Part shown: in pieces, positions 20,346-51,749 of the stretch
Layout of the letters: every line of letters begins with the position of its first letter
Numbering within the stretch: position 1 is the stretch's first letter
Assembly: GCF_036013935.1 (NCBI RefSeq)
Contig: NZ_CP107902.1
Span: 4,249,001 to 4,313,000, forward strand
Source: Streptomyces sp. NBC_00461
Lineage (GTDB): Bacteria > Actinomycetota > Actinomycetes > Streptomycetales > Streptomycetaceae
Direction of reading: 5' to 3'
DNA length: 64,000 nucleotides
Position numbers and translations under genes: made by a program
The notes under the pieces: model-generated
Seen by the model: the letters and a program-made list of their open reading frames with translations, nothing else
What the model was told of the DNA's origin: nothing
Databases searched by the model: none

Positions 20346-20355
20346 GCTGAGGCCT

Positions 20356-26877: not shown

Positions 26878-26948
26878 CGATGTGGTGAGTTCCGAGTGAT
26901 CTGACACAGCCGCCCTGCACGTACGTGAATCGATCTGACGAGTGGAAC

Positions 26949-30429: not shown

Positions 30430-31694
30430 CAGCGGGTGACTCCTTCGTGGAGGTTCGAGGGCTCGCGGAGGCTGGGGGCGGCCTGCCTCTCCGAGGCCCA
30501 GGCCAGGGTCTCGGCCAGCGTGCGCCAGATCTCAGAGGCCAGGTGGACGTTGGAGGCGCTCTGGGCCTCCTGGGCGAGTTCCTCGATACGGCGGACGCCG
30601 GCTTCGCGGTCGCCCTCAAGGATGCGGATCTGGTGGGCGAGGACCTCAAGCCGGATCCGGTCGCGGAAGGTCAGCTGCGGCAGGGCGTCCGTGAGCTGTT
30701 CGCACAGCCCCTTGGCCTGCACCAAGTCCCGTTGGTGAAAGGCGAGATGGGCCTTGATGACGAGAAGCTCCTGGCGGTGCAGCGGGCCTCCGAAGAGACC
30801 CACGGCGCGTTCGGCCTCGGCCAGCCACTGTTGGGCCTCGGTCACCCGGCGCGGGGTCATCTGCAGGTACAGGGAAGAGGCGGCCAGCCGCAGCCGCAGC
30901 ATCAGGTCGTCGTGGCTGGGCAGTTCGGTCAGGGCCCGCTGCAACAGCTCGGCGGCGCCCGGGTAGTCACCCTGGCGGATGCGTACGTTGGCGGCCGACC
31001 ACAGGGCCTCGGCACGCAGCACGGGGGGCAGGACGTCGATCGGTTCCAGCAGCTGGTCGGCGAGCCGGCGCGCCTCCGTGATCAGGCCCGACTCCGCCGC
31101 GACAGAGACGAGTACCAGTTGGGCGCGGATGGTGTCCGCCACTGGGACGGCCCCGTTGTCGGCGGTACCGAGGGCGGTCTGGGCGACGGCGCGGGCCTCG
31201 TCGATGTCACCGACGGCACGCAAGCAGCGGGCGAGGAGAGTGCGGGAGCGCACCTGGAGGGTGGACACCCCGAGGCGGTCGCTCAGCTCAATGAGTTCGC
31301 GTGCCGCGGCGAGTTCGTCCTGGCGCTTGCCCTGCTTGGCGTGCAGCTGGGCCAGCTTCCACAGGGACAGCCAGCGCAAGGAGAGATCCTCGCCGCTCCC
31401 TGCCTGGACGGCCTCGCCGAGCAGCCGTATGGCGTCGTCGGTGTCGTCCGAGGAGCTGGCGGAGGCGAGGGCCTGACCCAGCAGCGAGGTGTGGGTGCCC
31501 TGGAAGACGGACGCGGGCACGCCCAGTCGCCGGGTGAGGTGGTCGAGCACCTTGGCGGTCGGGCGCCGGGCCCCGGACTCCAGGCGTGACAGATACGCGG
31601 TGGACATGCCCCCCTCGGCAACCTCGGCCTGGGACAGGCCCCGCTCCTGTCTGAGGGTCTTCAATAGCTGTCCGAACTCGGGTTGTTCGAGCAC
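30429..31694 (-). CDS. XRE-family HTH regulator with TPR sensor domain (block 2)
   Basis: Product of 421 residues: HTH FGQLLKTLRQERGLSQAEVA, GMSTAYLSRLESGARRPTAK, then TPR-type repeats (LWSAANVRIRQGDYPGAAEL, LAASSLYLQM and others). It is paralogous to the block 1 regulator throughout. It is followed, with a one-base overlap, by the caspase-fold gene. A 37-base dyad lies 62 bases upstream of its ATG and an exported small peptide is encoded 450 bases upstream on the same strand, so a peptide ligand is a reasonable hypothesis. Confidence 0.87.
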   Translation of the reverse strand: MLEQPEFGQLLKTLRQERGLSQAEVAEGGMSTAYLSRLESGARRPTAKVLDHLTRRLGVPASVFQGTHTSLLGQALASASSSDDTDDAIRLLGEAVQAGSGEDLSLRWLSLWKLAQLHAKQGKRQDELAAARELIELSDRLGVSTLQVRSRTLLARCLRAVGDIDEARAVAQTALGTADNGAVPVADTIRAQLVLVSVAAESGLITEARRLADQLLEPIDVLPPVLRAEALWSAANVRIRQGDYPGAAELLQRALTELPSHDDLMLRLRLAASSLYLQMTPRRVTEAQQWLAEAERAVGLFGGPLHRQELLVIKAHLAFHQRDLVQAKGLCEQLTDALPQLTFRDRIRLEVLAHQIRILEGDREAGVRRIEELAQEAQSASNVHLASEIWRTLAETLAWASERQAAPSLREPSNLHEGVTR

Positions 31695-31755
31695 TTAGCC
31701 ATCCCTGCCATCCCTGAGCCTGTTGCCCCCGTGAACGGAACCATATTCAGTGCGG

Positions 31756-31792
31756 GACACAGGGTTGTCAACTCTTGGCAACCCTGTGTCCG
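31756..31792. promoter_or_regulatory. Large operator palindrome upstream of regulator 2
   Basis: GGACACAGGGTTGTCAA and TTGGCAACCCTGTGTCC are nearly perfect inverted arms around CTC. The inner 17-mer TTGTCAACTCTTGGCAA (31766-31782) is almost the same as the one upstream of the block 1 NRPS gene. Best candidate site for autoregulation by the XRE-TPR protein. Confidence 0.7.
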
Positions 31793-32145
31793 GCGAGGGG
31801 ACGGCGACCCGGCAAACCGGGCCTGGCACCGGGACCGCGGACTTCGCAAGCCCCGCCCGGACACCGCTTCCGCCCGGCGTGGGACGCCGCACGGCGGCCC
31901 GCCGGTCCCAGGCCGGAACGCAGAGCGGTCCGTCGCGGCGAGCGGGGGCCGGCCGCGGATGTCCGGCGCCCGTCGTCGGGGCACGAGCAGTAACCCCGGC
32001 CGCCCACGACGCAGGCCACAGCCCGCCGCACTGGACGCTCCGCGCAGGTCAGCCCGTCACCGCAGATGCCGTACAGGTCAAGGCCGGTCGCAGCGGCCCG
32101 TACCGCACCGGGCGCAAACCCTCTCAGCGATCGGGCGCCCGCAGG
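31793..32145. other. Intergenic stretch without a recognised gene
   Basis: About 350 GC-rich bases between the regulator operator and the small peptide gene. Frames on both strands lack recognisable motifs. Confidence 0.4.
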
Positions 32146-32349
32146 TTACGGCCAGTCGATGGGGTTCGCCACGGCGGCCGTAGCGGACTGCACGCGGACG
32201 TCGTGCGCGCCGTGAAGCGGCCAGTCGATCCTCGCGTGCGCGGCCTGCACCGTACGGCCCTCGGTGCCGACGTGGACGGCGGCCGCCCCGAGTGCGAGGA
32301 CGGCGGCCGACAGAACGGCGGTGGTGGTGCGACGACGGGCGATCTTCAT
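32146..32349 (-). CDS. Small exported peptide with two IDWP motifs (candidate signalling peptide)
   Basis: Product of 67 residues. ATG at 32349 preceded by GGGGGAAG at ideal distance. MKIARRRTTTAVLSAAVLAL then GAAA is a clear Sec signal (basic n-region, hydrophobic core). The mature part of about 40 residues contains HARIDWPLHG and ends exactly with NPIDWP, so the tetrapeptide IDWP occurs twice, once at the extreme C-terminus. Small exported pre-peptides with the active peptide at the C-terminus are typical partners of TPR-type regulators. Operators lie about 140 bases upstream. Not recognised as a known family. Confidence 0.6.
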   Translation of the reverse strand: MKIARRRTTTAVLSAAVLALGAAAVHVGTEGRTVQAAHARIDWPLHGAHDVRVQSATAAVANPIDWP

Positions 32350-32488
32350 GAATCTTCCCCCGGAATGTTGAGTGCGGTGGTGTCTGTAGGCCCACCGGAG
32401 GCTGGCAAGTGCGCGGTCGGACCGGCCCGGAACGGGGTGTCCCCCGGAAGCCGGCGGCGGCCGCTCGGTCAGTTCGAAGCTAGATCAC

Positions 32489-32505
32489 TTGCCAAAGTTT
32501 GACAA
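32489..32505. promoter_or_regulatory. Operator palindrome of XRE-TPR type
   Basis: TTGCCAAAGTTTGACAA has arms TTGCCAA/TTGACAA around AGT, the same design and length as the 17-mers at 31766 and 26328. Confidence 0.65.
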
Positions 32506-32519
32506 GCCTCAATGAGTGA

Positions 32520-32533
32520 TTGACAAACTTGTC
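32520..32533. promoter_or_regulatory. Second palindrome / possible -35 region
   Basis: TTGACAAACTTGTC contains GACAA-AC-TTGTC. TTGACA is also a consensus -35 box, so this may be the promoter of the biosynthetic operon overlapped by a regulator half-site. Confidence 0.4.
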
Positions 32534-32823
32534 CGGCCGCGCCTAGCGTCCTGTCACGAACGAGAGAGCCGCGGTGATGTCGAGGCCCTGTCCCGGACGT
32601 CTCGGCGCCCGCCGCGGCGGGCGCGCGGTGACGACAGGGCGTGTGGTCCCGCGGCAGACGGCGACCCACGATGCGGAGTCCCATGGCACCAACCGCTGGC
32701 TGAAGAAGACCCCGCCCACCCGGTACATGCGCAAGTCCCGTGCCATGCGGGACCTTTCGGCCGGACGGCACCTGGTGTGAACAGCGACAGCAGCCCAGCG
32801 ACCCAGACCAAGGTGATCACACG

Positions 32824-33924
32824 GTGACAGCCCTGACACACATGCCCTTGCCCATGACTGAGCCGCCCCAGGCCGGTTCCCCGCGCATCCGCGCGGCCGG
32901 CGAGGACGACCGAGACTTCCTCAGGTCCCTCTTCACCAGCACGCTCAGCCCGTTCTACGACGGTGACCACGCCGCGCACGCCGATCGCGTCCTCGATGCG
33001 CACCTCGCCTCCGGAGGCGACCCGTTCGGCCACTTCTCCCACTCCCAGCGCACCTTCGTGCTGTGTTCGGACGACACACCCGACGCCGAGCGGCTGGGTG
33101 TGCTGCACCTGGTGATCAAGCGCCAGGGCACGGTGAAGATCAGTCCGCTGATCCTCGTGCCGGAGCACCGCAGCCGCTCCAGACTCGGCACCACGCTGTT
33201 GCGCGCGGCGGAGGACTTCGCCCGCGAGGCCGGCGCCCGGCAGCTCTACTGCACGGTCGCCGCCGCCAACACCGCCGCGATCGACTTCTTCCTCTGGCAT
33301 GGCTTCGTGCTGGCGGGCGGCGCGCCCGGCCAGTACAAGTCGGACAGCACCGAGCACATGCTCTACAAGGACCTGACCCGGCGCACGGGGCCCGCCGGGG
33401 ACGACCACAGCGGCGCAGTGAGCGGCGCCCGCATCCGCCTGTTCCGGCCACAGGACGCGCCCGGGCTACGTGAGCTGGTGCTGCGCGCGATGCAGCCCGC
33501 GTACCGGGGTGTGAACGCGGACTGGGTGGACGCGCTGATAGCCGGGCACAACCGGCGCCACCACGGTGATGTCAACCAGAAGTTCAAGATCGTGCACGTG
33601 GCGGTGGACGAAACGAACACCGTGCGCGGAGTGGCCGCCGCCGGCCCGAAGAAGGGCCTGTCCGTCAAGCTGATGCCGCTGTGCGCGGACCATCCAGCCG
33701 TCCTCGCCCAACTCCTGGACCAGCTGCCCGACTTGCACCGCGGGCTCGGTCGCAAGCTCTACAGTCACCAGCCGCCGGATCCCGCCATCACCGCGCTCAT
33801 GCAGAGCCGCGGCTGGTCCCTGGAGGGCCTGATGCCGGCCGCGTACCACCCCGACACCTGCATCGTTCAATGGGGCCTGATCCTGCCCGCAGCGCCACAC
33901 CGCACCGGAGACGCACATGAGTGA
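32824..33924 (+). CDS. Two-domain GNAT acyl/aminoacyl transferase (block 2)
   Basis: Product of 366 residues, paralogous end to end with the block 1 GNAT at 18901. Shared landmarks: LFTSTLSPFYDGDHAAHADR, RQGTVKISPLILVPEH, ANTAAIDFFLWHGFVLAGG, NQKFKIVHVAVDETN and LMPAAYHPDTCIVQWGL. The acetyl-CoA loop is SRLGTTLLRAA. The GTG at 32824 follows AAGGTGA. It heads a plus-strand run of closely spaced genes to 42756; its stop overlaps the next start by 8 bases. Function by context: acyl or aminoacyl transfer in the nucleoside pathway, or resistance by N-acylation. Confidence 0.82.
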   Translation: MTALTHMPLPMTEPPQAGSPRIRAAGEDDRDFLRSLFTSTLSPFYDGDHAAHADRVLDAHLASGGDPFGHFSHSQRTFVLCSDDTPDAERLGVLHLVIKRQGTVKISPLILVPEHRSRSRLGTTLLRAAEDFAREAGARQLYCTVAAANTAAIDFFLWHGFVLAGGAPGQYKSDSTEHMLYKDLTRRTGPAGDDHSGAVSGARIRLFRPQDAPGLRELVLRAMQPAYRGVNADWVDALIAGHNRRHHGDVNQKFKIVHVAVDETNTVRGVAAAGPKKGLSVKLMPLCADHPAVLAQLLDQLPDLHRGLGRKLYSHQPPDPAITALMQSRGWSLEGLMPAAYHPDTCIVQWGLILPAAPHRTGDAHE

Positions 33925-34294
33925 CCTGGACCAGTACGCCGTCGAACTGCACTCCTTCGTAGCCGCACGCGGCTGGGACGCCTTCCAGAACCCCAAGAAC
34001 CTGGCGATGGCCCTCGGCGGCGAGAGCGGGGAACTGCTGGCGCTTCTGCAGTGGCTCACCCCGGAGGAGGCCGCGGCACGCCCCTTCGAGGACCCCGAGT
34101 TCCGCCGCGAACTCGCCCACGAGCTGGCCGACATCCTCAACTATCTGCTGCGGCTGTCCCGTTCGGCCGGTATCGACCTGCTCGCGGCCGCCCGCGAGAA
34201 GCTCGCCGTCAACGAGCAGCGTTACCCGGTGGAGCTGGCACGCGGTAATGCCCTGAAGTACGACCGGCTGGCCGAGGCAGGTGAGCAGGCATGA
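33917..34294 (+). CDS. MazG-like nucleotide pyrophosphohydrolase
   Basis: Product of 125 residues with the all-alpha NTP-PPase pattern: NPKNLAMALGGESGELLALL (EExxE-like metal site), then ELAHELADILNYLLRLSRSA (second ExxxD metal site). These hydrolyse (d)NTPs to monophosphates. In a cytosine-nucleoside cluster it could supply CMP from CTP for the downstream CMP hydrolase. It overlaps that gene by 4 bases (ATGA). Confidence 0.85.
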   Translation: MSDLDQYAVELHSFVAARGWDAFQNPKNLAMALGGESGELLALLQWLTPEEAAARPFEDPEFRRELAHELADILNYLLRLSRSAGIDLLAAAREKLAVNEQRYPVELARGNALKYDRLAEAGEQA

Positions 34295-34965
34295 GCGGCA
34301 CCACTCCCCTGCCCCCTACGTCCGCTGCCGCGGCGCACACCGCGGCCGGCCGGCGCTTCGGCGACGGCCTCACCGGTGGCCTGCGTGTCTTTCTCGCCGC
34401 GCCGTTCGTGCAGTTCATCGATCCGGCCGATGGCGTGGTCCGTCCGCAGTGGCGGCAGCGGCTGTCGGCCTTGCGTGAGGCACTTCTCGACGGCGGGCAT
34501 GCAGTCTTCAACGCCCACCACAACGAGGGGTGGGGCGAGTGGGGTCTGCCCCCACAGGAGTGCGTCCCCTCCGACTTCCGCGCGATGCAGTGCGCCGACC
34601 TGGTCCTCGCCTACCCGGGGACCCCGCCCTCCACGGGCGTCGCGCTCGAACTGGGCTGGGCCTCCGCGCTGCGCAAGCCCGTCGCCCTGCTGCTCGACCC
34701 CGGCACCACCTACAGCCCGATGATTTCGGCACTCGGCGAGATCTCCCCGGTGCTGCAGCTGCCGTTCGACGGCAGCTGGTCCGCGCAGTGCCTCGACGGC
34801 GCGGTCCGCACCGCCCTGGACTGGGCGGCCGGTCTCGGCGTCCGGCCGGGGCCGTGGAGCGCACCGGAGCTGGACCCGGCCCTGGCCTACCACCGGCACG
34901 CGGCGGACCGCCCCGACACGCCCGCGGTGGAGCCGGCCGCTGCGGAAACGGTGGTGCCGGCATGA
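34291..34965 (+). CDS. CMP N-glycoside hydrolase-like protein (MilB/BlsM, nucleoside 2-deoxyribosyltransferase superfamily)
   Basis: Product of 224 residues. Motifs of the superfamily: GGLRVFLAAPFVQFID, HAVFNAHHNEGWGE, SDFRAMQCADLVLAYPGTPP and the catalytic Glu in GVALELGWASAL (E about 120). In the blasticidin and mildiomycin pathways this enzyme releases free cytosine or hydroxymethylcytosine from CMP. It is sandwiched with 4-base overlaps between the nucleotide pyrophosphohydrolase and a cytosylglucuronate-synthase-like gene, which favours that reading over a general salvage deoxyribosyltransferase. Confidence 0.65.
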   Translation: MSGTTPLPPTSAAAAHTAAGRRFGDGLTGGLRVFLAAPFVQFIDPADGVVRPQWRQRLSALREALLDGGHAVFNAHHNEGWGEWGLPPQECVPSDFRAMQCADLVLAYPGTPPSTGVALELGWASALRKPVALLLDPGTTYSPMISALGEISPVLQLPFDGSWSAQCLDGAVRTALDWAAGLGVRPGPWSAPELDPALAYHRHAADRPDTPAVEPAAAETVVPA

Positions 34966-36248
34966 CGACCGCACTGCGGACACTCCCCGCGGCCGCCGGG
35001 CCCGGCCGGCCGCCCACCGCCGTGACCGTCGCCCTGTGCGGTGTCGAGTTCGGCTGGGGCAGCGCCGGAAAGCTCGGTGCGATCGTGCACGCGCTGCGGG
35101 CGGAGCTCGGCGACTGCGTGCGCTTCGTCGGGCTCGGCTCGCGGCTCGGCCGCGAGATCGTGCGCGGCCACGGTGTCGAAGAGTGGCACGACGTCGACCT
35201 CACGGATGCGCGGGCGCTGCGCGCCCTGGTGGACGAGCGGTCCCTGGACGCCGCCGTGTGCGTCCTGGACCGGGCCGCTGCAGTGGCGCTGGAGGACGCA
35301 GGCTGCCCCGTCGTGTTCGTCGACAGCCTGCCGTTCCTGTGGACGAAGGACGATCTGGACAGCCTGCCGCTGCGAGCCAGCGCCTACTGCGCGCAGCTGG
35401 TTCCCGGGCTGCCGGGTCCGGCCTGGCCCGTGCTCGCGCGTGTGGAGAACCTGCGCTGGGTCGAGTCGGTGGTCGTCCCCGGGCCGGTTCGGACAGGAGG
35501 CGAGATGCGGCCGGCCGGCGAACGCCGAGCGGTGGTCAGCCTGGGCGGCCTGCTGTCACCGCTGCTGGACGATCCCTCCGCCTACCTGTCCCTGACGGTG
35601 CCGGCCGCGCTTGACGCTCTCGCCGCGTGGGGCACCCGGCAGGTCACGCTGTGCGGCAACGTGCCCGAGGGGGTGTTCGACGGCATCACCGTTCCGGCGG
35701 GCCTCGACGTACGAAGCGGCGCCCTCGGCCACCAGGGCTTCCTGACCGAGATCGCTGAGGCCGACGTCCTGCTCACCTCCCCCGGTCTGACCACGCTGCT
35801 GGAGACCAGCACGCGCGGGGTGCCCGTGGTGTGCCTGCCCCCGCAGAACATCAGCCAGATCCTCAACGCCTCCTTCTACGCGCAGGCCACCGAGGCACCG
35901 GTCGCCGAGTGGCCTGAGGAGGTGTTCCGCGCCCAGGAGGTGCTCGACGCCCGCCTGGCCACGGCACCCGGTGACGTCGCGGACGGCGGTGGATCGCCCG
36001 GCGAGGATGCCGCCCTGGAACTGATCTACGGCGGGATCGAGCGCGCCGCCCGCACCCCCGCGCCGGTCCGCGCGGCCCTGACCGAGCGCATCGGCGCCTG
36101 CCTCGCCGCGGTCGAGCGGCAGCAAGGCCAATGGACCGCCCTGGCCCGGCTCGTCGGCACCGGCGGCGCGGCCCAGGTCGCCGACATCGTACTGGCCACC
36201 GCGGCTCGCCGCGGCACCAGTCACCGCCCCGCCGACCTCCCTTCCTGA
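34962..36248 (+). CDS. Cytosylglucuronate synthase-like GT-B glycosyltransferase (BlsD/MilC type)
   Basis: Product of 428 residues with a two-Rossmann GT-B layout. The N-terminal domain begins VALCGVEFGWGSAGKLGAIV, VRFVGLGSRLGREI. The C-terminal domain has the donor-binding pattern EADVLLTSPGLTTLLETSTR and GVPVVCLPPQNISQILNA. In the family named hydroxymethylcytosylglucuronate/cytosylglucuronate synthase, the enzyme couples UDP-glucuronate to cytosine. The neighbours on both sides fit this pathway. The assignment rests on remembered family features and context; other nucleobase acceptors are possible. Confidence 0.65.
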   Translation: MTTALRTLPAAAGPGRPPTAVTVALCGVEFGWGSAGKLGAIVHALRAELGDCVRFVGLGSRLGREIVRGHGVEEWHDVDLTDARALRALVDERSLDAAVCVLDRAAAVALEDAGCPVVFVDSLPFLWTKDDLDSLPLRASAYCAQLVPGLPGPAWPVLARVENLRWVESVVVPGPVRTGGEMRPAGERRAVVSLGGLLSPLLDDPSAYLSLTVPAALDALAAWGTRQVTLCGNVPEGVFDGITVPAGLDVRSGALGHQGFLTEIAEADVLLTSPGLTTLLETSTRGVPVVCLPPQNISQILNASFYAQATEAPVAEWPEEVFRAQEVLDARLATAPGDVADGGGSPGEDAALELIYGGIERAARTPAPVRAALTERIGACLAAVERQQGQWTALARLVGTGGAAQVADIVLATAARRGTSHRPADLPS

Positions 36249-36262
36249 AAGGCTGACCGATC

Positions 36263-37255
36263 ATGCAGGAACGACACCGGTATCTGTTCATCCGTGTGCT
36301 GGAGGCATGCAACGCCGACTGCTTCATGTGCGAGTTCGCCCTCTCCCGGGACACCTACCGGTTCAGCCCGGAGGACTTCGCCGAATTGCTGCCGGAGGCG
36401 GTGGCGAAGGGGGTGGGTTACGTCCGCTTCACCGGCGGCGAGCCGCTGATGCACCGGGACGTCGTCGATCTGGTGCGCATGGGCACGGAGCACGGCATGC
36501 GCATGTCGCTGATCACGAATGGCATGTTCCTGCCCCGCCTCGTCGACCGGCTCGCCGACGCCGGGCTGGCCCAGGTGATCGTCAGCCTGGACGGCTCCTC
36601 CGCTGCCACCCACGACGTCTACCGCCGCTCTCCCGGCATGTTCGACAACGGCCTGGAAGGGCTGCGCCGGGCAAAGGAGTTGGGGATCATCCCGCGCGTC
36701 AACTCCGTCGTGGGACCGCACAACTTCGCGCAGATGCCCGAGCTGCAGCGGGTGCTGACCGACCTCGGCGTCCAGCAGTGGGAGCTGTCCGCGATCAAGC
36801 TGGACCGTGAGATCCGCTATCCGTCGGCGGAGGAGGTCATCGCCGCCTGTGAGCCCATCTACACCGCCGACCCGGCCACCACGCTCGTACCGCTCGGCAA
36901 GCGCTTCTACGGCGACACACCCGAGGAGCAGAAGGCCTTCTTCGAGGAGTCCCTGCCGCCGCGCGCCTCGGAGCCGCTGTGTCTGGTCACCGACGACGTG
37001 ATCTACCTGGACGGCAAGAACGGCCGGATGTTCTCGTGCAGTTGCCTTCCGCACAAGGAGGGGGACGAGGGCCCCGGCGGCGCGCCGCTGCGCACCGACG
37101 ACGGCAAGGTCATGCTCGACAGCCCGGTCTTCCGCACCCACGCGGGTCTCTTCAAGCAGCAGGGCCCGACGATGTGCGGCGGCTGCTCCGCGACCGCCGC
37201 CGGCTACAGCGACGACCTCGCCCGCATGGGCTCCGTACCGGCCTGGAACTACTGA
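36263..37255 (+). CDS. Radical SAM enzyme, cytosylglucuronate decarboxylase-like (BlsE/MilG type)
   Basis: Product of 330 residues. The radical SAM cluster motif is CNADCFMC (C16, C20, C23), followed by RFTGGEPLMHRDVVDLV (GGEP motif) and VIVSLDGSSAATHDVYRRSP. The C-terminal region adds further cysteines (FSCSCL, MCGGCS), suggesting a second cluster or SPASM-like site. BlsE-type enzymes decarboxylate and dehydrate cytosylglucuronic acid at C5'. It follows the presumed cytosylglucuronate synthase by 14 bases, in the order known for blasticidin-type clusters. AAAGG precedes the ATG. Confidence 0.7.
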   Translation: MQERHRYLFIRVLEACNADCFMCEFALSRDTYRFSPEDFAELLPEAVAKGVGYVRFTGGEPLMHRDVVDLVRMGTEHGMRMSLITNGMFLPRLVDRLADAGLAQVIVSLDGSSAATHDVYRRSPGMFDNGLEGLRRAKELGIIPRVNSVVGPHNFAQMPELQRVLTDLGVQQWELSAIKLDREIRYPSAEEVIAACEPIYTADPATTLVPLGKRFYGDTPEEQKAFFEESLPPRASEPLCLVTDDVIYLDGKNGRMFSCSCLPHKEGDEGPGGAPLRTDDGKVMLDSPVFRTHAGLFKQQGPTMCGGCSATAAGYSDDLARMGSVPAWNY

Positions 37256-37310
37256 CGGCCCCGCCTTCCCCTCACGCCCGCGTCTGGAACCGACCGCGCC
37301 CGGAGCCACC

Positions 37311-38249
37311 ATGTCCTCACCCACCACCGCCCCGCATCCCGCCCCGCCGCGGCTGCGCGTGCTCGCCGCCGCCCGACCCACGCTGGAGTCCCAGGCCGCG
37401 CTGCGCCATGTCAGCGCCCACCTCACCGAAGTCGAGCTGACCGGTGAGCCGGACGCAGGCCCCGCCCTCGGCGCCGCCGTGGTGTGCGACGACGATGTGC
37501 TCGCCGCGCGCCTGAGCGCCTCCGGCGTGCCGGTTGTGTTCGTCGCCTCCGGTGGCCCCCCGCCCGGCGACACCTGGCCGCCGTCGGCCGTCCGCTGCCT
37601 GCACCGGCCGGGCTGGCTGGGCGGGCAGCGCGCCATGGGCGTGCACACGGTCGGCACGATCGCCCCGCCCCGGGCCGCCCGGGCGCGTGCGGCGCGCGGC
37701 GCGGTCGTCCAGCTGTCCACACCGGATCTGCACCCCGCCGACCACGCGGCCGTCGCCCGGGCGGGCGCGGCCCTGCGCGCCGCCGCGGAGGCGGCACAGT
37801 ACGACGGGAAACCGCTGCTCGGTGTGGTCCTGGACGCGCCGGTGCTCGCGCGGTCCGCCCTGCTGTCCGCGGCCGGAGAGGACACCGGCGCGCTGCCCGT
37901 CGTAGGGGTCGAGGAGGCCGCCACGGAGCGGCTGCTGGCAGAGGCGTCGCTGCTGGTCTCCTCGCCCCTGCTGACTGCCGTCAACCAGGCGCACGTCGCT
38001 CGGGTCCCGCTGCTGCTGCTCCCAGCGCTGGACGCGGACCAGGCCACTCGGCTTAACGGGATCACGGAGGCGGCCGGCGTCGAGGTGCTCGACGCGGCCG
38101 CACCGGACACCTCGGCCGACCGTGCCGTCCGAGGTGCCGACCCGCTCTGGAACCGCATCTCCCGGGCACTGGAGCACGCCGGCGACGACCGGCGCGGCGC
38201 CCAGCGCGTCGCCCGTCAGGTCCGGCAGCTCCTGCTCGCCCCGTTCTGA
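37311..38249 (+). CDS. GT-B-like protein of unknown role
   Basis: Product of 312 residues. Its second half (ATERLLAEASLLVSSPLLTA, RVPLLLLPALDADQATRLNG) copies the donor-domain pattern of the upstream glycosyltransferase (LLTSPGLTTLLETSTR ... QNISQILNA). The first half (LRVLAAARPTLESQAALRHV) is weaker and shorter. It may be a degenerate partner subunit of the glycosyltransferase or an independent enzyme. No catalytic residue can be named. Confidence 0.5.
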   Translation: MSSPTTAPHPAPPRLRVLAAARPTLESQAALRHVSAHLTEVELTGEPDAGPALGAAVVCDDDVLAARLSASGVPVVFVASGGPPPGDTWPPSAVRCLHRPGWLGGQRAMGVHTVGTIAPPRAARARAARGAVVQLSTPDLHPADHAAVARAGAALRAAAEAAQYDGKPLLGVVLDAPVLARSALLSAAGEDTGALPVVGVEEAATERLLAEASLLVSSPLLTAVNQAHVARVPLLLLPALDADQATRLNGITEAAGVEVLDAAAPDTSADRAVRGADPLWNRISRALEHAGDDRRGAQRVARQVRQLLLAPF

Positions 38250-38301
38250 CGCGGCCTCTCCCCGCAGCCCCTGTCCACCCATCTCGAACGGAAGCCTGCT
38301 G

Positions 38302-39465
38302 ATGCTGCGTCCCTTCCCCTACGGCGCCAACTACCTCTCCCTGGCGGACACCCCAGAACTGCACCGGTCCCTCAACAACAAGGTCCTCTTCCGCTACAGC
38401 GCCCCTGCGCCGAGCAACGCCGACCTGCTGGAGGCGTACGCGGCCGAGCGGCTCGGCGCGGGGCGGGCGCTGACCGTGCCGAACGGCACACAGGCCCTGC
38501 GTGTGGCGCTGATGGGCACCCGACCGCGGGCCGGCGACCCCGTGTACATACCGGCGGTCACGTTCGTCGCGGTGGCCGGTGCCGTGCTGTCCTGCGGACT
38601 GGTTCCGGTCCTCGTCGACGTCGATGAGCGGTTCGGCCTGGACGCCTCGCTGCTGCCCGCGGACGCGGAGCGAGTGGTGGTGGCGCACATGGAGGGCACC
38701 GTCGTCGACCTGCCCGAGCGGGTGCCGTACCTGATCGAGGACAGCGCGCAGGCCATGGGCGGACGCCACACGGACGGGCGGCACGCCGGCACCGTCGGCT
38801 ATGCGGGCACGTACAGCTTTCACCACGCCAAGATCCTCACCTCCGGCGAGGGCGGCCTGGTCGTGGTCCGCGACCCCGCCCATTGGGACGTCCTGCGCTC
38901 CTACACCGACCATGGCTCGGCCCGTGAGCAGGGCAAGTACCCGGGCTGGAACCCCGGCGCGTTCTACGGCGAGAACTTGTGTGCCAACGAGGCCGTGGCC
39001 GCCGTACAGCTCCAGCAGTTCCGGCGGCTGGACGAGATCCTCTCCTCTCTGGAGCGGCACTACGCCCTGACGCTGGAGGCACTCGGCGAGCGCTCGGACG
39101 TCAGCGTGATTCCCAAGCGCCCCGGTGACGTCAAGACCAGCGTGCGGCTGCGGCTGGAGTCGCCACATCTTCGAGACCGGGCCATGGAGCGGCTGGAGGA
39201 ACGGGGGCTGCCCTGCTGGAGCCTGGACAAGTACCTTTTGCCGGAGCACCCGGTGGTGGCGGGCCGCGCCTCGCTGTACGCGGACGGGTTCCCGTGGAAC
39301 CTGGCCGACGGCGACGACCGTTACGCGCCGTTGAGCCGGGACGGTTTCGCCGCAACTCGCGACGGGCTGAGCCGCACCCTGTGCGTACCGCTCACCCCGG
39401 AACTCGACGAGGCGGAACAGATCCTGCTGGCCAAGGAGATCGCCGCCGTCATTGCCGCGCTCTGA
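38302..39465 (+). CDS. DegT/DnrJ/EryC1-type PLP aminotransferase
   Basis: Product of 387 residues, full length for the family. PLP-binding Lys is in TYSFHHAKILTSGEGG (K about 177), preceded by the cofactor-contacting YLIEDSAQAMGG and by PAVTFVAVAG. The N-terminus MLRPFPYGANYLSLADTPEL is unusual and shared with the decayed copy in block 1. In the blasticidin pathway a DegT enzyme (BlsH) installs the amino group on the dehydrated sugar, which fits the position after the radical SAM gene. Confidence 0.85.
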   Translation: MLRPFPYGANYLSLADTPELHRSLNNKVLFRYSAPAPSNADLLEAYAAERLGAGRALTVPNGTQALRVALMGTRPRAGDPVYIPAVTFVAVAGAVLSCGLVPVLVDVDERFGLDASLLPADAERVVVAHMEGTVVDLPERVPYLIEDSAQAMGGRHTDGRHAGTVGYAGTYSFHHAKILTSGEGGLVVVRDPAHWDVLRSYTDHGSAREQGKYPGWNPGAFYGENLCANEAVAAVQLQQFRRLDEILSSLERHYALTLEALGERSDVSVIPKRPGDVKTSVRLRLESPHLRDRAMERLEERGLPCWSLDKYLLPEHPVVAGRASLYADGFPWNLADGDDRYAPLSRDGFAATRDGLSRTLCVPLTPELDEAEQILLAKEIAAVIAAL

Positions 39466-39532
39466 CGGCACCTCCCTGCCCGGCGGACCGTCCCTCCTCG
39501 TGGACCGTCCCCACGAGAACCGAGAGAATGCC

Positions 39533-40852
39533 ATGACTCACGCCGCATCCGACACCTGGCCCGAAGAGCCGTCCACCGAAACCGACTCCAAGCCCCCGCC
39601 GGCCGGGAACCGGTTCCTCACAGTCCTGAGCGACAAGGCCATGCGCGCCCCACTGCTGTGGAGCACCGTCGGCCGGTTCCCGCTGTACCTGGTCACGCTC
39701 GCCCTCGTGGTGTTCGCCACCTCGCGCGGCACGGGCTACGGCTCAGCGGGCCTGCTGCTGGCCTGCTACACGCTGGGCGGTGCGGTGCTTGCGCCGGTCG
39801 TCGCCCGCCGCGTCGACGTGCACGGCCAGACTCCCCTGCTCCTCCTGACCGGTGTCGTCCACCCGCTGGCACTGATCGGCCTGGTGTGCACGGCGTCCGA
39901 CGCCCGCATCCCGCAGCTGGTGTGCGCGAGCGTCGCGGGCGCCACGATCCCACCGGTCAGCGGCTGTGTCCGGTCGCTGTGGAGCGCGCTGCCCAGCGGC
40001 CGGGAGGCGGCATTCTCCCTGGAAGCGGTGCTCAGCGAGGTCTTCGTCATCGGCGGACCGCTGCTGCTCAGCGCCGTACTGTTCTGGGGAACCCCGGCCA
40101 CGGCCCTGGTCGTCGGCGGGCTTCTGGCGGGCGTGGGGGCCATCGGTTTCGCCACCACGCAAGCCTCGCGCAACTGGCGCGCCGAGGAGACCGAGAGCGA
40201 CCTGCTGGGCGCGCTGCGCTCGCCGGGCCTGGTCCGGCTGCTGGCCGTCCTGGTCTGCGCGGCCGTGTCCATGGGCGTGTTCAACCTGGTCCTGCCCGCC
40301 TTTGCCGAGGAACACGGCTCCGCGGACAGCATCGGCCTGATCTTCGGTGCCTGGGGCGTCGGCGGGCTCGTCGGCGGGCTCTGGTACGGCAGCCGTACCC
40401 GGGACTGGCCCGCCGAACGCACCTTCGCCATCGGCCTGCTCATCCTGTCCGCGTTCACCGCACTACCCCTGCTCGCCTGGGACAACTGGTCGATGGGCGT
40501 GGCCCTCGCCCTGGGCGGCGTGATCATCGCCCCGGTGACGGCCGTGGAGTACGAACTCGTCGCGCGCACGGCCCCGTCGGGCGCCATCACCGAGGCCTTC
40601 ACCTGGGTCATCACCGTGAACGTCGTCGGCACCGCCGTCGGCGCCCAGCTCGGCGGTCTCCTCGTCAGCGCCTACGGCACCTGGGCGGCCTTCGTCGCCG
40701 CGGTCGCCGCCCTGCTCGCGGGCGCCGCCATCGCCTTCGCCGTACGCCACCGGTTCACGGCCCCGGCCGGCACCCCCGGCTCTGCCCACCCCGATCCAGC
40801 GGACCCGGAGCTGTACGACTCCACCACCCTCGGCCCACCCGATGGCGCATGA
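39533..40852 (+). CDS. MFS exporter
   Basis: Product of 439 residues with about 12 hydrophobic segments and short loops, e.g. FPLYLVTLALVVFA, GLLLACYTLGGAVLAPVVAR (motif A-like), ALALGGVIIAPVTAVEYELV. Probably a proton-driven exporter of the cluster product and thus self-protection. The block 1 copy is reduced to a C-terminal fragment, so this would be the only exporter of the locus. It overlaps the next small frame by 4 bases (ATGA). Confidence 0.85.
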   Translation: MTHAASDTWPEEPSTETDSKPPPAGNRFLTVLSDKAMRAPLLWSTVGRFPLYLVTLALVVFATSRGTGYGSAGLLLACYTLGGAVLAPVVARRVDVHGQTPLLLLTGVVHPLALIGLVCTASDARIPQLVCASVAGATIPPVSGCVRSLWSALPSGREAAFSLEAVLSEVFVIGGPLLLSAVLFWGTPATALVVGGLLAGVGAIGFATTQASRNWRAEETESDLLGALRSPGLVRLLAVLVCAAVSMGVFNLVLPAFAEEHGSADSIGLIFGAWGVGGLVGGLWYGSRTRDWPAERTFAIGLLILSAFTALPLLAWDNWSMGVALALGGVIIAPVTAVEYELVARTAPSGAITEAFTWVITVNVVGTAVGAQLGGLLVSAYGTWAAFVAAVAALLAGAAIAFAVRHRFTAPAGTPGSAHPDPADPELYDSTTLGPPDGA

Positions 40853-40983
40853 CCGATCCCCCCGGCGCCGCTGGGTGGGCGACCTGTACGCACGTGGAGG
40901 GCAGCGACGTGGCCGAAACCATCTCCCGGATGCAAGCCGTGCTGGACCATTTCCGGATGAAGGTCCTCGACCAGGCAGCCTGA
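40849..40983 (+). CDS. Small ORF coupled to the exporter gene
   Basis: An ATG overlapping the exporter stop (ATGA) opens 44 codons ending SRMQAVLDHFRMKVLDQAA. Inside it, a GTG near 40910 has GGAGGG at good distance and would give a 24-residue amphipathic helix. The 150 bases after it lack a gene. It could be a small regulatory or leader-type peptide; coding is not certain. Confidence 0.4.
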   Translation: MTDPPGAAGWATCTHVEGSDVAETISRMQAVLDHFRMKVLDQAA

Positions 40984-41136
40984 ACGGATGCCCCGGCGGC
41001 CCGGAAATTAATGAGCAGCCGTCGACCAAGCTCGCCTGGCACCGTGGTCCGGGAGCCGCCTGCCCCACACAGCGCGCCGGCGCACCCACGCCGTATCCGT
41101 ACAGCAGCCGTACAGCAGACAAGGACACAGGAAAGA

Positions 41137-42756
41137 ATGGGACATCTGGAGGCCTCTCACCTCGAGTACTACCTGCCCGACGGGCGGATACTGCTCGGCG
41201 ACGTGTCGTTCCGGGTGGGCGAGGGAGCGGTGGCGGCCCTGGTCGGCGCGAACGGCGCCGGCAAGACGACCCTGCTGCGGCTGCTGTCCGGCGAGCTGAA
41301 GCCGCACGGCGGCACGGTCACGTCGAGCGGCGGTGTCGGGGTGATGCGGCAGTTCGTCGGTTCGGTGCGGGACGAGAGCACGGTCCGCGACCTGCTGGTG
41401 TCAGTGGCGTCGCCGGGCATCCGGCGAGCCGCGCAGGCCGTGGACGCGGCCGAGCACCTGATCCTGACGGTGGACGACGAGGCCTCTCAGATGAAGTACG
41501 CCCAGGCCCTGGCCGACTGGGCGGAGGTACGCGGCTACGAGGCGGAGACCCTGTGGGACATGTGCACCATGGCCGCGCTCGGCGTGCCGTACGAGAAGGC
41601 GCAGTGGCGTCAGATTCGCACGCTCTCGGGCGGTGAGCAGAAGCGGCTCGTCCTGGAGGCGCTGCTGCGCGGTCCCGATGAGGTGCTCCTGCTGGACGAG
41701 CCCGACAACTACCTGGACGTACCGGGCAAACGATGGCTGGAGAACCGGCTCGGTGAGACCGGCAAGACGGTGCTGTTCGTCTCGCACGACCGGGAGCTGC
41801 TGGCGCGGGCCGCCGAGCGGATCATCGCGGTGGAACCGAGCCCGGCCGGCTCCGACGTCTGGGTGCACGGCGGCGGTTTCGGCACCTTCCACGAGGCGCG
41901 GCAGGAGCGGTTCGCCCGGTTTCAGGAGCTGCGCCGCCGCTGGGACGAGAAGCACGCCCAACTCAAGAAGTTGGTGCGCGACCTGCAGCAGTACGCCGCG
42001 CGCAGCGACGACATGGCTTCTCGCTACCAGGCGGCGCGGACCCGGCTGCGCAAGTTCGAGGAGGCCGGTCCGCCGCCGGAGCCACCGCGCAAGCAGGAGA
42101 TCCGGATGCGTCTGCACGGCGGGCGCACCGGGGTGAGGGCCGTCACCTGTGCGCAGTTGGAGCTGACTGGGCTGATGAAGCCTTTCTCTCTGGAGATCTT
42201 CTACGGCGAGCGGGTGGCGGTGCTCGGCTCCAACGGGTCGGGCAAGTCGCACTTCCTGCGGCTGCTGGCCGGAGAGGGCGTGGCGCACACGGGCACGGCG
42301 ACACTGGGCGCACGGGTGGTACCGGGTCATTTCGCCCAGACACATGCGCATCCCGAACTGATGGGGCGCACCCTGGTGGACATCCTGTGGACCGAGCACG
42401 CCCGGGACCGCGGCGCGGCCATGTCGGCGCTCCGCCGCTACGAATTGGACCGGCAGGGTGACCAGGCTTTCGACCGGCTCTCCGGCGGGCAGCAGGCGCG
42501 CTTTCAGATCCTGCTGCTGGAACTGCAGGGAACCACCGCCCTGCTCCTGGACGAGCCGACCGATAACCTGGACTTGGAGTCGGCGGAGGCCCTGCAGGAG
42601 GGGCTGGAGGCGTACGAGGGGACGGTCTTGACGGTCACCCACGACCGCTGGTTTGCACGGTCCTTCGACCGCTTCCTGGTGTTCGGCAGCGACGGCCGGG
42701 TACGCGAGACGCCGGAGCCGGTGTGGGACGAGCGCCGCGTGGAACGGGCACGCTGA
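41137..42756 (+). CDS. ABC-F ATPase, probable ribosome-protection/self-resistance protein
   Basis: Product of 539 residues with two ABC domains and no membrane segments. Domain 1: Walker A GANGAGKTTLL, signature LSGGEQKR, Walker B LLLDEPDNYLD. A charged helical linker (RRRWDEKHAQLKKLVRDLQQ) is the P-site tRNA-interaction motif region. Domain 2: GSNGSGKSHFL, LSGGQQARFQ, LLLDEPTDNLD. ABC-F proteins dislodge ribosome-bound antibiotics. This fits a product that, like blasticidin, acts on the ribosome. AGGAAAG precedes the ATG; it is the last gene of block 2. Confidence 0.88.
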   Translation: MGHLEASHLEYYLPDGRILLGDVSFRVGEGAVAALVGANGAGKTTLLRLLSGELKPHGGTVTSSGGVGVMRQFVGSVRDESTVRDLLVSVASPGIRRAAQAVDAAEHLILTVDDEASQMKYAQALADWAEVRGYEAETLWDMCTMAALGVPYEKAQWRQIRTLSGGEQKRLVLEALLRGPDEVLLLDEPDNYLDVPGKRWLENRLGETGKTVLFVSHDRELLARAAERIIAVEPSPAGSDVWVHGGGFGTFHEARQERFARFQELRRRWDEKHAQLKKLVRDLQQYAARSDDMASRYQAARTRLRKFEEAGPPPEPPRKQEIRMRLHGGRTGVRAVTCAQLELTGLMKPFSLEIFYGERVAVLGSNGSGKSHFLRLLAGEGVAHTGTATLGARVVPGHFAQTHAHPELMGRTLVDILWTEHARDRGAAMSALRRYELDRQGDQAFDRLSGGQQARFQILLLELQGTTALLLDEPTDNLDLESAEALQEGLEAYEGTVLTVTHDRWFARSFDRFLVFGSDGRVRETPEPVWDERRVERAR

Positions 42757-42819: not shown

Positions 42820-42860
42820 CCTAAAGCGGGTGTCGCAGGTTCGAATCCTGCCGGGGGCAC
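42820..42860. repeat. att core, copy 3
   Basis: Forty-one bases from CCTAAAG to GGGGGCAC are identical to the tRNA-Arg 3' part. The bases to its left do not form a tRNA 5' half. It separates the biosynthetic segment B from segment C, 63 bases after the ABC-F stop. Confidence 0.85.
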
Positions 42861-43010: not shown

Positions 43011-45152
43011 TTACTCACTGTTGGCAGGGCTGATGCCGGGACGGCGGTTCCGGTGTGCGCGTCTGGACGGCGCCCTTTCGTCGGGTTGCTCGGCCGTGTC
43101 GTAGTTGCGCCAGCCGGTGAGGCGTCCTTCCGGGTTGTACCTGGCTGACAGTCCGGGAGGATCCATGTGATCTTCGTGTTCCCGGACCAGTTGCTGGGGC
43201 AGCATGACCACTGCTGTGATGCCGTGGGGCGACGAACTGCGGAGCTGGACGCGGATGTCGTGGCGGCCGGAAAGTCGGCCTACGACGAACATGCCCATGC
43301 GTCGCGCCACCGCGACGTCGACGACCGGAGGGTTCAGGAGCCTCTCGTTGGCCTCCACAAGGTCCTCGGCGGACATGCAGATGCCGTTGTCCTGGATCTC
43401 GACCTTCGCGCCGCCGCCGGACAGCAGCCGGCAGGTGACCCGCACCTCGGTGTCCGGAGAGGAGAACGTAGTCGCGTTCTCCAGCAGCTCCGCGATGAGA
43501 TGAACGATGTCGTTCACCGCCCGGCCGTCGACGTCCGCGGTGACCAGTCCGCGCAGCTGCACCCGCTGGTATTGCTCGATCTCGCCGATGGCGGCCCGGA
43601 GGACATCCACGAGCCGGACCGGGGCGCTCCAGCGGCGGCCCGCCTTTCCGCCCGCCAGGACGAGCAGGTTCTCCCCGTTGCGGCGCAGGCGGGTGGCCAG
43701 GTGGTCGAGTTTGAAGAGGCTGGCGAGCAGGTCGGGGTCCTGTTCGCCGTTCTCCAGGTGGTCGATCAGCTCCAGCTGCCGTTCCACGAGGCTCTGGCTG
43801 CGCTGCGACAGGTTGACGAACATCGTGTTGATGCGCCCGCGCAGGTGCGCTTGCTCGAACGCCAGCCGCACGGAATCGCGATGGACATCGTCGAACGCGC
43901 GGGCGACAGTTCCGATCTCGTCAGTCGAGTCGACGGCCGTGGATTCGACCTCGATGGGCTTGAGTTGGGTGCCGCCGGCCTCCCGCAGCAACCGGACCAC
44001 CTCGGGCAGGCGGCGTTGCGCGATATCGCGGGTAGAGGCACGCAGGGTGTGCAGCGGGCCGACGATCGACTGCACGAGGACGTGCGTCACGCCGATCACG
44101 AGCAGGAGGATCAACAGCTCGACGAGCGACGCTGTGAACAGTGAGTGCTCGGCCTGGCGCTGCTCGCGCGAGCTCTCGTCCTCGACCGATCCGACGAGCC
44201 GCTGCTCGACCCGTCGCATCAGGTCCAGCTTGCTCGTCATGGTGTCGAACCACACGTCGGCGTCGAGGTTGGGGCGACGGGTGCCCTGCAGGGCGAGTGC
44301 CTGCTTCTGGAACGTGTCGGCCCTGTCGACGTCCCTTCCGGTGAGGGTGCGCTCGTAGAACTGACGCTGGCCGGCCGGCGCACCGGACAGGAACTGGTCG
44401 ATCAATGCCTGTTGCCGACGGCCGGCCAGGGTCAGGCTCTGGGCCTCGTTCGAATCGAAGTGTCCATCGGCCAGTGCGCCGCCGAGCAGTGCGCGTTGCT
44501 GGGACGCTTTCTCCGTGGCCTGGGCGAAGGTCTCGAGTGTGCCGGCCCTCATGAAAAGGGCCTGGCCGGCGATGCCCGGCGCCAGAAGGTCAAGGGCGTC
44601 GGTGAGCTCGGTGAGCAAGACCGTGTATGCGTCGACCACGGTCGGCCAGCGCATCGTCGCCCCGGCCACCGTGTGGCGCAGCGACGCCACCTTCGGGCCG
44701 AGGGCGTCGAGCACCGCGAGCTGAGTGCCCAGGACCGAGTTCGTCCTTCGGTGGACACGAGCGGCTTCGCCACGGACCCGGGCCAGCGCCGCGTCTGTCT
44801 TCGAGCGCTGCGTGTCGATTCGGCTCGTGTTGCCCGTACGGCCTGCGGCGACGTGGACGGCGGTGAGATCGCGTTCGTCCTCGATCTCCTGCACCAGCGT
44901 CGCGCCCTTGTCGACGACGCGGACGAGCTGACGGGCCTTGTCGATGTCCCGTGCCTTGTGCACGGCGGATCCGACCCGCAGACCGCCCAGTACGAGCGCG
45001 GTGACGATCGGGATGACGACCACAGCCAGCAGCTGGGTGCGCACGCTCCAGTCACTCGGGGTGAACCGCCTCTGGTTGCTGCCAGGTTGTGCTTGCACTT
45101 GCCCTCGTACCCTCTCCCCGTCCTTGAACGTGCGCGATGCAGGGGCGTCCAC
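43011..45152 (-). CDS. Sensor histidine kinase with nitrate/nitrite-sensing (NIT) domain
   Basis: Product of 713 residues. TM1 (LLAVVVIPIVTALVLGGL, about 40-58), an extracellular helical NIT domain (about 70-330, with IEDERDLTAVHVAAGR and QQALIDQFLSG), TM2 (SLVELLILLLVIGVTHVLV), HAMP with DEIGTVARAFDDVH, a dimer region (LDHLATRLRRNGENLLVLAG) and an HATPase domain with N-box LLENATTFSSPD. The G1 box reads DNGICMS where DxGxG is expected, so Gly is replaced by Cys. It resembles CvnA of actinobacterial conservons, but no cvnB-D partners follow. The 332 bases upstream hold no gene, only a TCGTG simple repeat. Confidence 0.8.
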   Translation of the reverse strand: MDAPASRTFKDGERVRGQVQAQPGSNQRRFTPSDWSVRTQLLAVVVIPIVTALVLGGLRVGSAVHKARDIDKARQLVRVVDKGATLVQEIEDERDLTAVHVAAGRTGNTSRIDTQRSKTDAALARVRGEAARVHRRTNSVLGTQLAVLDALGPKVASLRHTVAGATMRWPTVVDAYTVLLTELTDALDLLAPGIAGQALFMRAGTLETFAQATEKASQQRALLGGALADGHFDSNEAQSLTLAGRRQQALIDQFLSGAPAGQRQFYERTLTGRDVDRADTFQKQALALQGTRRPNLDADVWFDTMTSKLDLMRRVEQRLVGSVEDESSREQRQAEHSLFTASLVELLILLLVIGVTHVLVQSIVGPLHTLRASTRDIAQRRLPEVVRLLREAGGTQLKPIEVESTAVDSTDEIGTVARAFDDVHRDSVRLAFEQAHLRGRINTMFVNLSQRSQSLVERQLELIDHLENGEQDPDLLASLFKLDHLATRLRRNGENLLVLAGGKAGRRWSAPVRLVDVLRAAIGEIEQYQRVQLRGLVTADVDGRAVNDIVHLIAELLENATTFSSPDTEVRVTCRLLSGGGAKVEIQDNGICMSAEDLVEANERLLNPPVVDVAVARRMGMFVVGRLSGRHDIRVQLRSSSPHGITAVVMLPQQLVREHEDHMDPPGLSARYNPEGRLTGWRNYDTAEQPDERAPSRRAHRNRRPGISPANSE

Positions 45153-45484
45153 GTGTCGCAGGCACGCCGCTCATCGCGCGAGTGCGCTTGTCGTGTCGTG
45201 TCGTGTCATGTCTTGATGAACGTGCCGTCGATGGATGAGGCCATTGCCTCGTCCGTCCGCCGGCAGGTTCCTGCGGACGCGAACCACGCGTCGGCCTCGG
45301 AGCTGTTCGAGACCTCGGCCACTTCCTCGGCGGGGGTCGCTGTGGCGATCCGCTCAGTACCGGGGCTCAGCCGTCCGTCGTGTTCGCCAGGCGGGGTGGG
45401 CCTGGCATCGGCGGCGAGGTCGGCCGTGTCTTTGCCGGTGGCGAGGCCGCCTTCGCCACCGGGCCAACCAAACGTGCAAGGGGC
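45153..45484. other. No gene; short TCGTG tandem repeat
   Basis: Between the sensor kinase start and the DhaL stop. A 5-base unit TCGTG is repeated about 3.4 times at 45191-45207. Nothing else was recognised. Confidence 0.4.
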
Positions 45485-46138: not shown

Positions 46139-46196
46139 CGTCGTCCCTGCTCCCTCGTACGTTCTCGTACGGTCCGGCGTCGATGGGCTTGGCCGC

Positions 46197-47189: not shown

Positions 47190-47207
47190 GCTTCCGGCCT
47201 CTTCTTC

Positions 47208-49555: not shown

Positions 49556-49691
49556 GGTCGGTACGGGGCTGTTCGGAGGTTGGTTGAGCCGAGGGCCGAG
49601 GGAAGACGCGAGGGGTGCGGTCCGGGCGGGCGGGCGGCGGGAAGGACCCGGCCCGGCCCTCGCGTCGCGCGTGGCCCGGCCCCCGGCTCGG

Positions 49692-51457: not shown

Positions 51458-51611
51458 GGAAGGCGCCCAGCGCCGAGCGGCGGCTTGGGCGTCTCACCTC
51501 CTCGCGTGGAGCGGGCTGTGAAGGGGGAGGTGGCCGCCAGGTGGTCAGGGGTCGGGCAACCTGGCGGCCGCTCAGGGGGAAGCCGGGGAGCTTTAAGTTC
51601 CGGCTGTAGAG

Positions 51612-51630
51612 CGTTCATCATGGATGAACG
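51612..51630. promoter_or_regulatory. IclR operator-like palindrome at the glpF-dha promoter
   Basis: CGTTCATCATGGATGAACG is a perfect 19-base dyad with the form GTTCA-N7-TGAAC. The same spaced form is found at 52546-52562 on the other side of the iclR gene. Confidence 0.7.
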
Positions 51631-51733: not shown

Positions 51734-51749
51734 GGATCAGAGGGGCGGG

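Follow-up and report, generated by a model that had tools for sequence, protein, structure and literature searches.

Blasticidin S blocks translation and keeps the P-site tRNA trapped in a deformed state; it has found use as a fungicide and as a selection drug (PMC5572114). The cluster types compared here differ in their arginine side-chain genes: the blasticidin type contains BlsG and the arginomycin type contains beta-methylarginine genes. BlsK is responsible for leucylation and BlsI for the amide bond. The window analysed here, a stretch of 64,000 nucleotides, comprises positions 4,249,001-4,313,000 of the single-contig genome (10.37 Mb) of Streptomyces sp. NBC_00461, and coordinates refer to this window unless another source is given. 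It shows a cluster ranging from about 17880 to 42756, so the limits of the initial annotation, 32824-42756, were too narrow. We favour, as reasonably probable, its assignment to the blasticidin/arginomycin family, in which it would form a third type with a hydroxylated and methylated arginine unit, located on a tRNA-Arg island. Judged from its genes, the product most likely consists of a cytosine aminosugar carrying an arginine that is hydroxylated and probably also N-methylated; the arginine side chain is probably made differently from those of the known types, so that the product would be a new relative. We know of no hydroxy-N-methylarginyl cytosine nucleoside, and no description of such a cluster was found in the accessible portions of the open-access literature searched.

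The right operon shows nine co-directional genes on the forward strand (32824-42756), each an open reading frame without inner stop; the first four, from the GNAT gene to the CGA (cytosylglucuronate) synthase gene, overlap by 4-8 bp, which suggests an operon. All nine had been named by the initial annotation, and they are present and intact in the order and on the strand that it gave. The operon starts with a gene encoding a two-domain GNAT acetyltransferase (32824-33924, GTG start), followed by one encoding a MazG-like nucleotide pyrophosphohydrolase (33917-34294), just under the Pfam gathering score, and one encoding a CMP N-glycosidase of the BlsM type (34291-34965). Then come the genes encoding the BlsD/MilC-type CGA synthase (34962-36248), with 366.6 bits to the NCBIfam profile TIGR04467 (cut-off 300; E 1.5e-109), and the BlsE-type CGA decarboxylase (36263-37255), a radical SAM protein with 648 bits to TIGR04466 (cut-off 400; E 3.1e-195), whose CxxxCxxC motif is CNADCFMC, starting at residue 16. 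Both proteins thus pass equivalog cut-offs, which bears out their assignment in the initial annotation, where a profile and BLAST comparison with Bls and Mil proteins had been proposed. The gene at 37311-38249 encodes a CGA-synthase-related protein with 182.8 bits to TIGR04469 (cut-off 150; E 1.1e-53). It had been taken as an extra glycosyltransferase-like protein and a sign of a new product, a view that does not hold: it is BlsF, a known partner, as annotated relatives also name it, and it was found in 27 of the 28 loci compared below. Downstream are a gene encoding a DegT aminotransferase, BlsH (38302-39465), 58-71% identical to BlsE-linked copies and 96% to that of Streptomyces sp. uw30, with Lys177, located by a family motif, as the presumed Schiff-base residue; a gene encoding a major facilitator superfamily (MFS) exporter at the BlsJ position (39533-40852); and a gene encoding an ABC-F ribosome-protection-like protein (41137-42756). 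The latter is 61-78% identical to ABC-F proteins beside other BlsE loci and 92% to that of uw30, and has 265 bits to NF000355, under its cut-off of 380. By family membership, the operon almost certainly encodes the core pathway to a cytosine aminosugar. The genome contains, 3.8 Mb away (8056653-8058268), another stretch whose DNA is 82% identical to the ABC-F gene of the cluster.

The left half of the cluster contains the genes predicted to make and attach the arginine unit, mostly on the reverse strand. On this strand, reading from 26150 towards 17880, the first gene encodes an 866-aa adenylation-peptidyl carrier protein (A-PCP) enzyme with a fused guanidinoacetate N-methyltransferase-like domain (23550-26150). 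Its carrier serine is kept, and the C-terminal domain matches guanidinoacetate N-methyltransferase (6e-22). The possibility that this protein carries BlsL itself was ruled out, as its methyltransferase region is closer to domains linked to non-ribosomal peptide synthetases (NRPS) of other bacteria (43-57%, 119 matches listed besides its own) than to BlsL (about 35% over 100-140 residues). The next gene encodes an Fe(II)- and 2-oxoglutarate-dependent arginine hydroxylase of VioC/OrfP/GntD type (22525-23553), which passes the GntD profile NF041363 (380.5 bits, cut-off 345) and is under the cut-off of the VioC profile TIGR03946 (309 against 418.6 bits). Its relatives of solved structure are 6daw and 4m23, which we take to be NapI and OrfP, and it keeps His155-x-Glu, His301 and Arg315, presumably in their family roles as ligands. 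It thus shares family and conserved His-x-Glu, His and Arg with VioC, OrfP, NapI and GntD, whereas its partner genes differ. It is followed by a second, broken DegT/BlsH copy (21588-22490), interrupted and without about residues 95-192, the stretch of the pyridoxal phosphate lysine, and by a gene encoding a BlsI homologue (20356-21576; ATP-grasp and LAL_C2 by Pfam), the proposed ligase between the arginine unit and the aminosugar, which is 51% identical to the protein at the blsI position of the Kitasatospora sp. NBC_00039 cluster (L011). A short MFS gene remnant (20068-20355), a gene encoding a second two-domain GNAT (18901-19944; 60% identical to the first) and a gene encoding a type II thioesterase with GHSLG (17880-18740; Pfam Thioesterase 2.8e-40), proposed to release the carrier-bound amino acid, complete this arm. 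The order from the hydroxylase gene to the MFS remnant parallels BlsG-H-I-J of the same Kitasatospora cluster. Between this arm and the right operon, two genes encode HTH-TPR regulators, a (26925-28169, forward strand) and b (30429-31694, reverse strand; 39% identical to a), and the gene at 28357-30429, on the reverse strand, encodes a 690-aa BlsK homologue, 49% identical to the arginomycin-type protein and 56% (507 residues) to the blasticidin-type one; a CHAT-like assignment of this protein was discarded on the basis of these identities. The genes encoding BlsI, BlsK, the hydroxylase, the A-PCP-methyltransferase enzyme, the second GNAT and the thioesterase have no interruption of their reading frames, and the hydroxylase, carrier, methyltransferase and thioesterase keep all of the motifs for which they were inspected. 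Since the left half contains the BlsI and BlsK homologues, both halves fit one pathway, and the loss of the DegT and MFS copies need not matter, because intact counterparts are present in the right operon. As the ligase, BlsK and arginine-tailoring genes lie outside 32824-42756, a different end product is probable, as the initial annotation had expected; its own reason was not the true basis, which is found in these left-half genes that it had not seen.

For comparison, BlsE was sampled in overlapping sets of genomes of the genus (12 of 392), the family (16 of 297) and the class (3 of 394, with no new BlsE genome), each count including NBC_00461 itself; a sample of relatives also overlaps with these. 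The comparison set contains 28 loci: 25 of the 26 other BlsE genomes (G500 was left out) and three plasmid records, which possibly belong to the same species as some sampled genomes and one of which, the stretch of an Embleya plasmid, was compared as DNA only. Among them, 23 belong to the blasticidin type (BlsG), three to the arginomycin type (beta-methylarginine genes), one, on a 6-kb contig (G008), is untypable and is the only one in which BlsF was not found, and the remaining one is uw30. In tblastn (1e-6) a BlsG query matched 23 of the 28 loci and not the window; no BlsG match was found in the whole NBC_00461 genome at E 0.001, in a search without a positive control of its own. Neither the beta-methylarginine aminotransferase nor the 2-ketoarginine methyltransferase gave a match at 1e-6 within the window. 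Over the 28 loci and the window, this GNAT and MazG were found only in the window and uw30, and the oxygenase only in the window. With the blasticidin S cluster of Kitasatospora sp. NBC_00039, whose letters H-M we assign by position, the NBC_00461 cluster has in common BlsD, E, F, H, I, K and M homologues, an MFS exporter at the BlsJ position and an ABC-F protein. It differs in that no BlsG was found, in that the methyltransferase is a domain on the A-PCP enzyme instead of a free-standing BlsL, and in having a hydroxylase, MazG, two GNATs and a thioesterase, arranged in two divergent arms. With the arginomycin type, represented by Streptomyces sp. NBC_00467 (L010), typed here by its annotated beta-methylarginine genes, it shares the gene order M-D-E-F-H-MFS, with a hydroxylase in the window in place of the beta-methylarginine genes. 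Identities are higher to the arginomycin than to the blasticidin type for E (76-80% against 69-75%), H (69-71% against 58-64%) and MFS (49-50% against 35-43%), although not for the CGA synthase (41% over 69% of the length against 44-51%). For BlsE, BlsH, the ligase and MFS, the trees group the window with uw30 in a clade separate from the blasticidin and the arginomycin clade, and tree distances favour an arginomycin affinity for E, H and MFS, the ligase being nearly equal (1.9-2.04 against 2.09); these trees hold three groups with midpoint rooting only and do not prove the window to be sister to the arginomycin type.

The search for related loci returned only Streptomyces sp. uw30, of the same genus, which contains the same third cluster type in a decayed form. 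Stretches shared with it, counted if longer than 150 bp at E 1e-10 and lying within 60 kb of uw30, cover 17885-42819 of the window with gaps, and show scars in the left half. The stretch 30451-40812 is 95.6% identical and the ABC-F region 88.4%. The nine right-operon genes are kept in uw30 without inner stops in the aligned parts (430 of 439 residues for MFS), and dN/dS against the window ranges from 0.11 to 0.48 in eight of the nine; BlsM shows 1.5, on few changes. Of the BlsI homologue, only residues 154-406 were found in the uw30 genome, which otherwise shows a pair of remote ATP-grasp proteins (28%) and, of BlsK, only fragments. In uw30 448600-449358 (C119), beside a deletion, the C-terminal part of the BlsI homologue lies within an open frame of 708 aa, which is probably a relic joined to an upstream remnant.

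Read together, the gene families would allow the following pathway. CTP would be trimmed to CMP by the MazG-like protein, CMP would be split to cytosine by the BlsM-type hydrolase, and cytosine would be joined to glucuronate by BlsD; the cytosylglucuronate would then be decarboxylated by the radical SAM chemistry of BlsE and aminated by BlsH to give a cytosine aminosugar. In the second arm, arginine would be loaded on the A-PCP enzyme, whose fused methyltransferase would methylate the guanidine; the VioC-like oxygenase would then hydroxylate the arginine, the thioesterase would free it, and the BlsI-like ligase would attach this unit to the aminosugar. BlsK and the GNATs may mask the toxic amine inside the cell, while the MFS protein would export the product and the ABC-F protein would protect the ribosome. 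The sequence itself shows the gene families, their open frames and the lack of a BlsG match; the substrate of the A domain, the order of these steps, the site of hydroxylation, the masking and the product are predictions from gene content. The initial annotation had proposed a full route from CTP to an aminated cytosyl sugar with export and ribosome protection within 32824-42756; the steps from CMP to cytosine, cytosylglucuronate, decarboxylated sugar and amine, the exporter and the ABC-F protein are found there, while the ligase, BlsK and arginine genes are outside. A further proposal, which we put forward tentatively and hold at somewhat below even chances, is that the cluster represents a third branch of the family, one that assembles its arginine unit on a carrier protein and so dispenses both with the BlsG aminomutase and with the step in which BlsL methylates the leucylated nucleoside at a late stage; the outcome would be the hydroxy-N-methylarginyl cytosine nucleoside mentioned above. 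The core steps and BlsF were already known and the arginine module of the left half is new. If the proposal holds, the exchange of an aminomutase for a module of carrier-bound hydroxylation and methylation would show how the side chain is swapped during evolution, and it would give a defined product mass to seek and a way to ask about the timing of guanidine methylation.

The base of the product is most likely plain cytosine, as judged from the hydrolase motif and the gene neighbourhood, and this bears on whether the cluster could be of the mildiomycin type, with hydroxymethylcytosine and an arginine-derived side chain. Such a reading can call on the CGA synthase and CGA decarboxylase families, which NBC_00461 has in common with mildiomycin clusters (PMC11784345), and the BlsM/D/E/H core supports the blasticidin half of the blasticidin/mildiomycin assignment made by the initial annotation. 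The NDT-like protein at 34291-34965, also just under the Pfam gathering score, matches the solved MilB (6.2e-24) and BlsM (8.3e-24), with the catalytic Glu at 120; its motif FLAAPFV shows Val where the hydroxymethyl-CMP enzymes have Arg or Lys, PF(R/K). PMC4081090 describes genetic linkage of these enzymes to MilA homologues; in BlsM and others, by contrast, the position is taken by residues of the I/M/Q/T/G type and this linkage is lacking; the table of that source gives BlsM kcat/KM values of 675 for CMP and 205 for hydroxymethyl-CMP, and elsewhere it states that BlsM has no special preference. The NBC_00461 genome has its only thymidylate-synthase-family (PF00303) match at position 5.34 Mb, some 1 Mb distant from the cluster, so there is no linked MilA-family gene, and a BlsI-type ligase is present. 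The mildiomycin part of the initial assignment is therefore rejected as hardly tenable. That the strain is an ordinary producer of blasticidin S or arginomycin is also very improbable: the shared D, E, F, H, I, K and M homologues would be expected of it, but not the lack of BlsG matches in the genome and of methylarginine genes in the window, nor the additional hydroxylase and A-PCP-methyltransferase enzyme.

More weight has to be given to the possibility that the right operon alone is functional, its product being a cytosine aminosugar of pentopyranine/cytosinine type, unacylated and perhaps N-acetylated, and the left half a decaying relic. The state of uw30 speaks for it, since there the left arm is found only as pieces, with ligase and BlsK partial, while the right operon is kept under the dN/dS values given above and, at least in uw30, may be kept for a simpler product; the DegT and MFS genes of the left half are decayed in the window too. 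The open frames and kept motifs of the other left-half genes, and the intact right-operon counterparts of both decayed genes, make this unlikely for NBC_00461. Less likely still is that two clusters lie side by side, the left half (17.9-26.2 kb) making a hydroxyarginine-containing peptide independently of the blasticidin-type core, as its opposite strand, its NRPS parts (A-PCP enzyme and thioesterase) and a GC step at about 28 kb might suggest. Its BlsI homologue, DegT/BlsH and MFS remnants and sister GNAT tie it to the core, its order hydroxylase-H-I-MFS is like G-H-I-J, and no condensation domain was found by Pfam in the scanned left-half proteins. Several observations nevertheless weigh against a third type with a hydroxylated and methylated arginine unit, beginning with the decay of the uw30 left arm just described. 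The GC content is 0.64-0.67 at 18-28 kb and 0.70-0.735 at 28-42 kb, and this lower GC together with the two decayed genes means that 18-28 kb may be decaying or may come from elsewhere. Enzymes of the VioC family use free arginine, so that hydroxylation would not require a carrier, and enduracididine may fit instead of arginine, as the GntD family name would have it. Acidic pocket residues are expected for a basic amino acid substrate, and the A-domain pocket, which reads DVED..CITK with two acidic residues, weakly suggests a basic substrate such as arginine, but it was read by alignment to a GrsA segment and two of its ten positions depend on the alignment. The start or integrity of the thioesterase is uncertain, as its first approximately 30 residues do not align with the uw30 copy. 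Finally, the cluster is known only at the level of its genes.

The cluster lies on what seems to be the middle one of three tandem islands behind a tRNA-Arg (CCT) gene (5428-5503, forward strand). A 41-bp repeat from the 3' end of this gene (5461-5501, ending two bp before the gene end) has exact forward-strand copies (41 of 41 bp) at 13304-13344, the left border, and at 42820-42860, the right border, 63 bp past the ABC-F stop, and a fourth copy with one mismatch at 54094-54134. The islands that these four copies seem to delimit measure about 7.8, 29.5 and 11.2 kb. The block 13304-42860 contains the whole cluster. Beside its left border, on the reverse strand, is a C-terminal fragment of a site-specific integrase (13434-13679; PHROG integrase 1.3e-5), which shows no Pfam match at 0.01 and matches five plasmid records by tblastn, one of them annotated as a site-specific integrase. 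The stretches shared with uw30 end right before the repeat at 42820. In uw30 the cluster is on a contig other than that of its tRNA-Arg gene, with no tRNA in the 59 kb scanned there, and what follows the tRNA-Arg gene is another stretch, 13.6 kb long and closed by a repeat with four mismatches; the flanks do not align. From the repeats at the borders, the end of the shared part at the repeat and the other location in uw30, the NBC_00461 cluster looks mobile, and the tRNA island suggests how it moves.

The GNAT of the right operon shows a predicted structure (24 sequences) of two GNAT folds, with pLDDT 84.7 and pTM 0.60. A tandem GNAT from the clavulanate pathway comes first among its Foldseek matches; the TM-score is low (0.33) since the two domains are placed differently or uncertainly. 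In sequence, nourseothricin acetyltransferase is the solved structure closest to its first domain (6.6e-6). That the GNATs mask a product amine is plausible. In the metagenomic protein P0130, a GNAT of this type (55% identity) and a MazG-like domain are fused into a single polypeptide, which speaks for a joint role of both proteins; the MazG-like protein may supply CMP from CTP. The closest GNAT relatives belong to uw30 (95%), S. puniciscabiei (87%), NPDC048416 (74%), NPDC006660 (72%) and Streptomyces sp. 2231.1 (67%). In NPDC048416, the longest contigs recorded for the GNAT and for a 50%-identical oxygenase relative both measure 261,567 bases, and in a JGI source the GNAT (65%) and an oxygenase relative (49%) are both recorded on contigs of 11,285 bases; the equal sizes make co-location likely in both and suggest that the GNAT-plus-hydroxylase type is not confined to NBC_00461. 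A GNAT search of 395 genomes of relatives returned NBC_00461 itself, uw30 and one 40% match, and a second genus sample of 340 genomes added none. Among the 120 hydroxylase matches listed, none is above 54% except its own fragment and a 91% copy in NPDC058646, and its matches in 69 plasmid records are all below 60% identity, the best among those listed being near 39%. Many of the listed GNAT relatives show the two-domain GNAT fused to an ASCH domain (P0135, P0137 and similar), and two of them bear the name Candidatus Nanosynbacter.

Other genes are found around the cluster. Left of it, in the middle island and outside the stretches shared with uw30, are genes encoding a polyprenyl synthetase and then an MpaB/rubber-oxygenase-type protein (15322-17660). 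At the start of the thioesterase frame (18650-18740), about 30 residues resemble, by eye, a dinucleotide-binding N-terminus, perhaps the leftover of a deleted oxidoreductase. The third island (43011-52529) contains genes encoding a nitrate-sensor-type histidine kinase, two Dak1 proteins, a Dak2 protein, a PEP-utilising (PTS enzyme I-like) protein, a glycerol-facilitator-family protein and an IclR regulator, a set for dihydroxyacetone/glycerol use.

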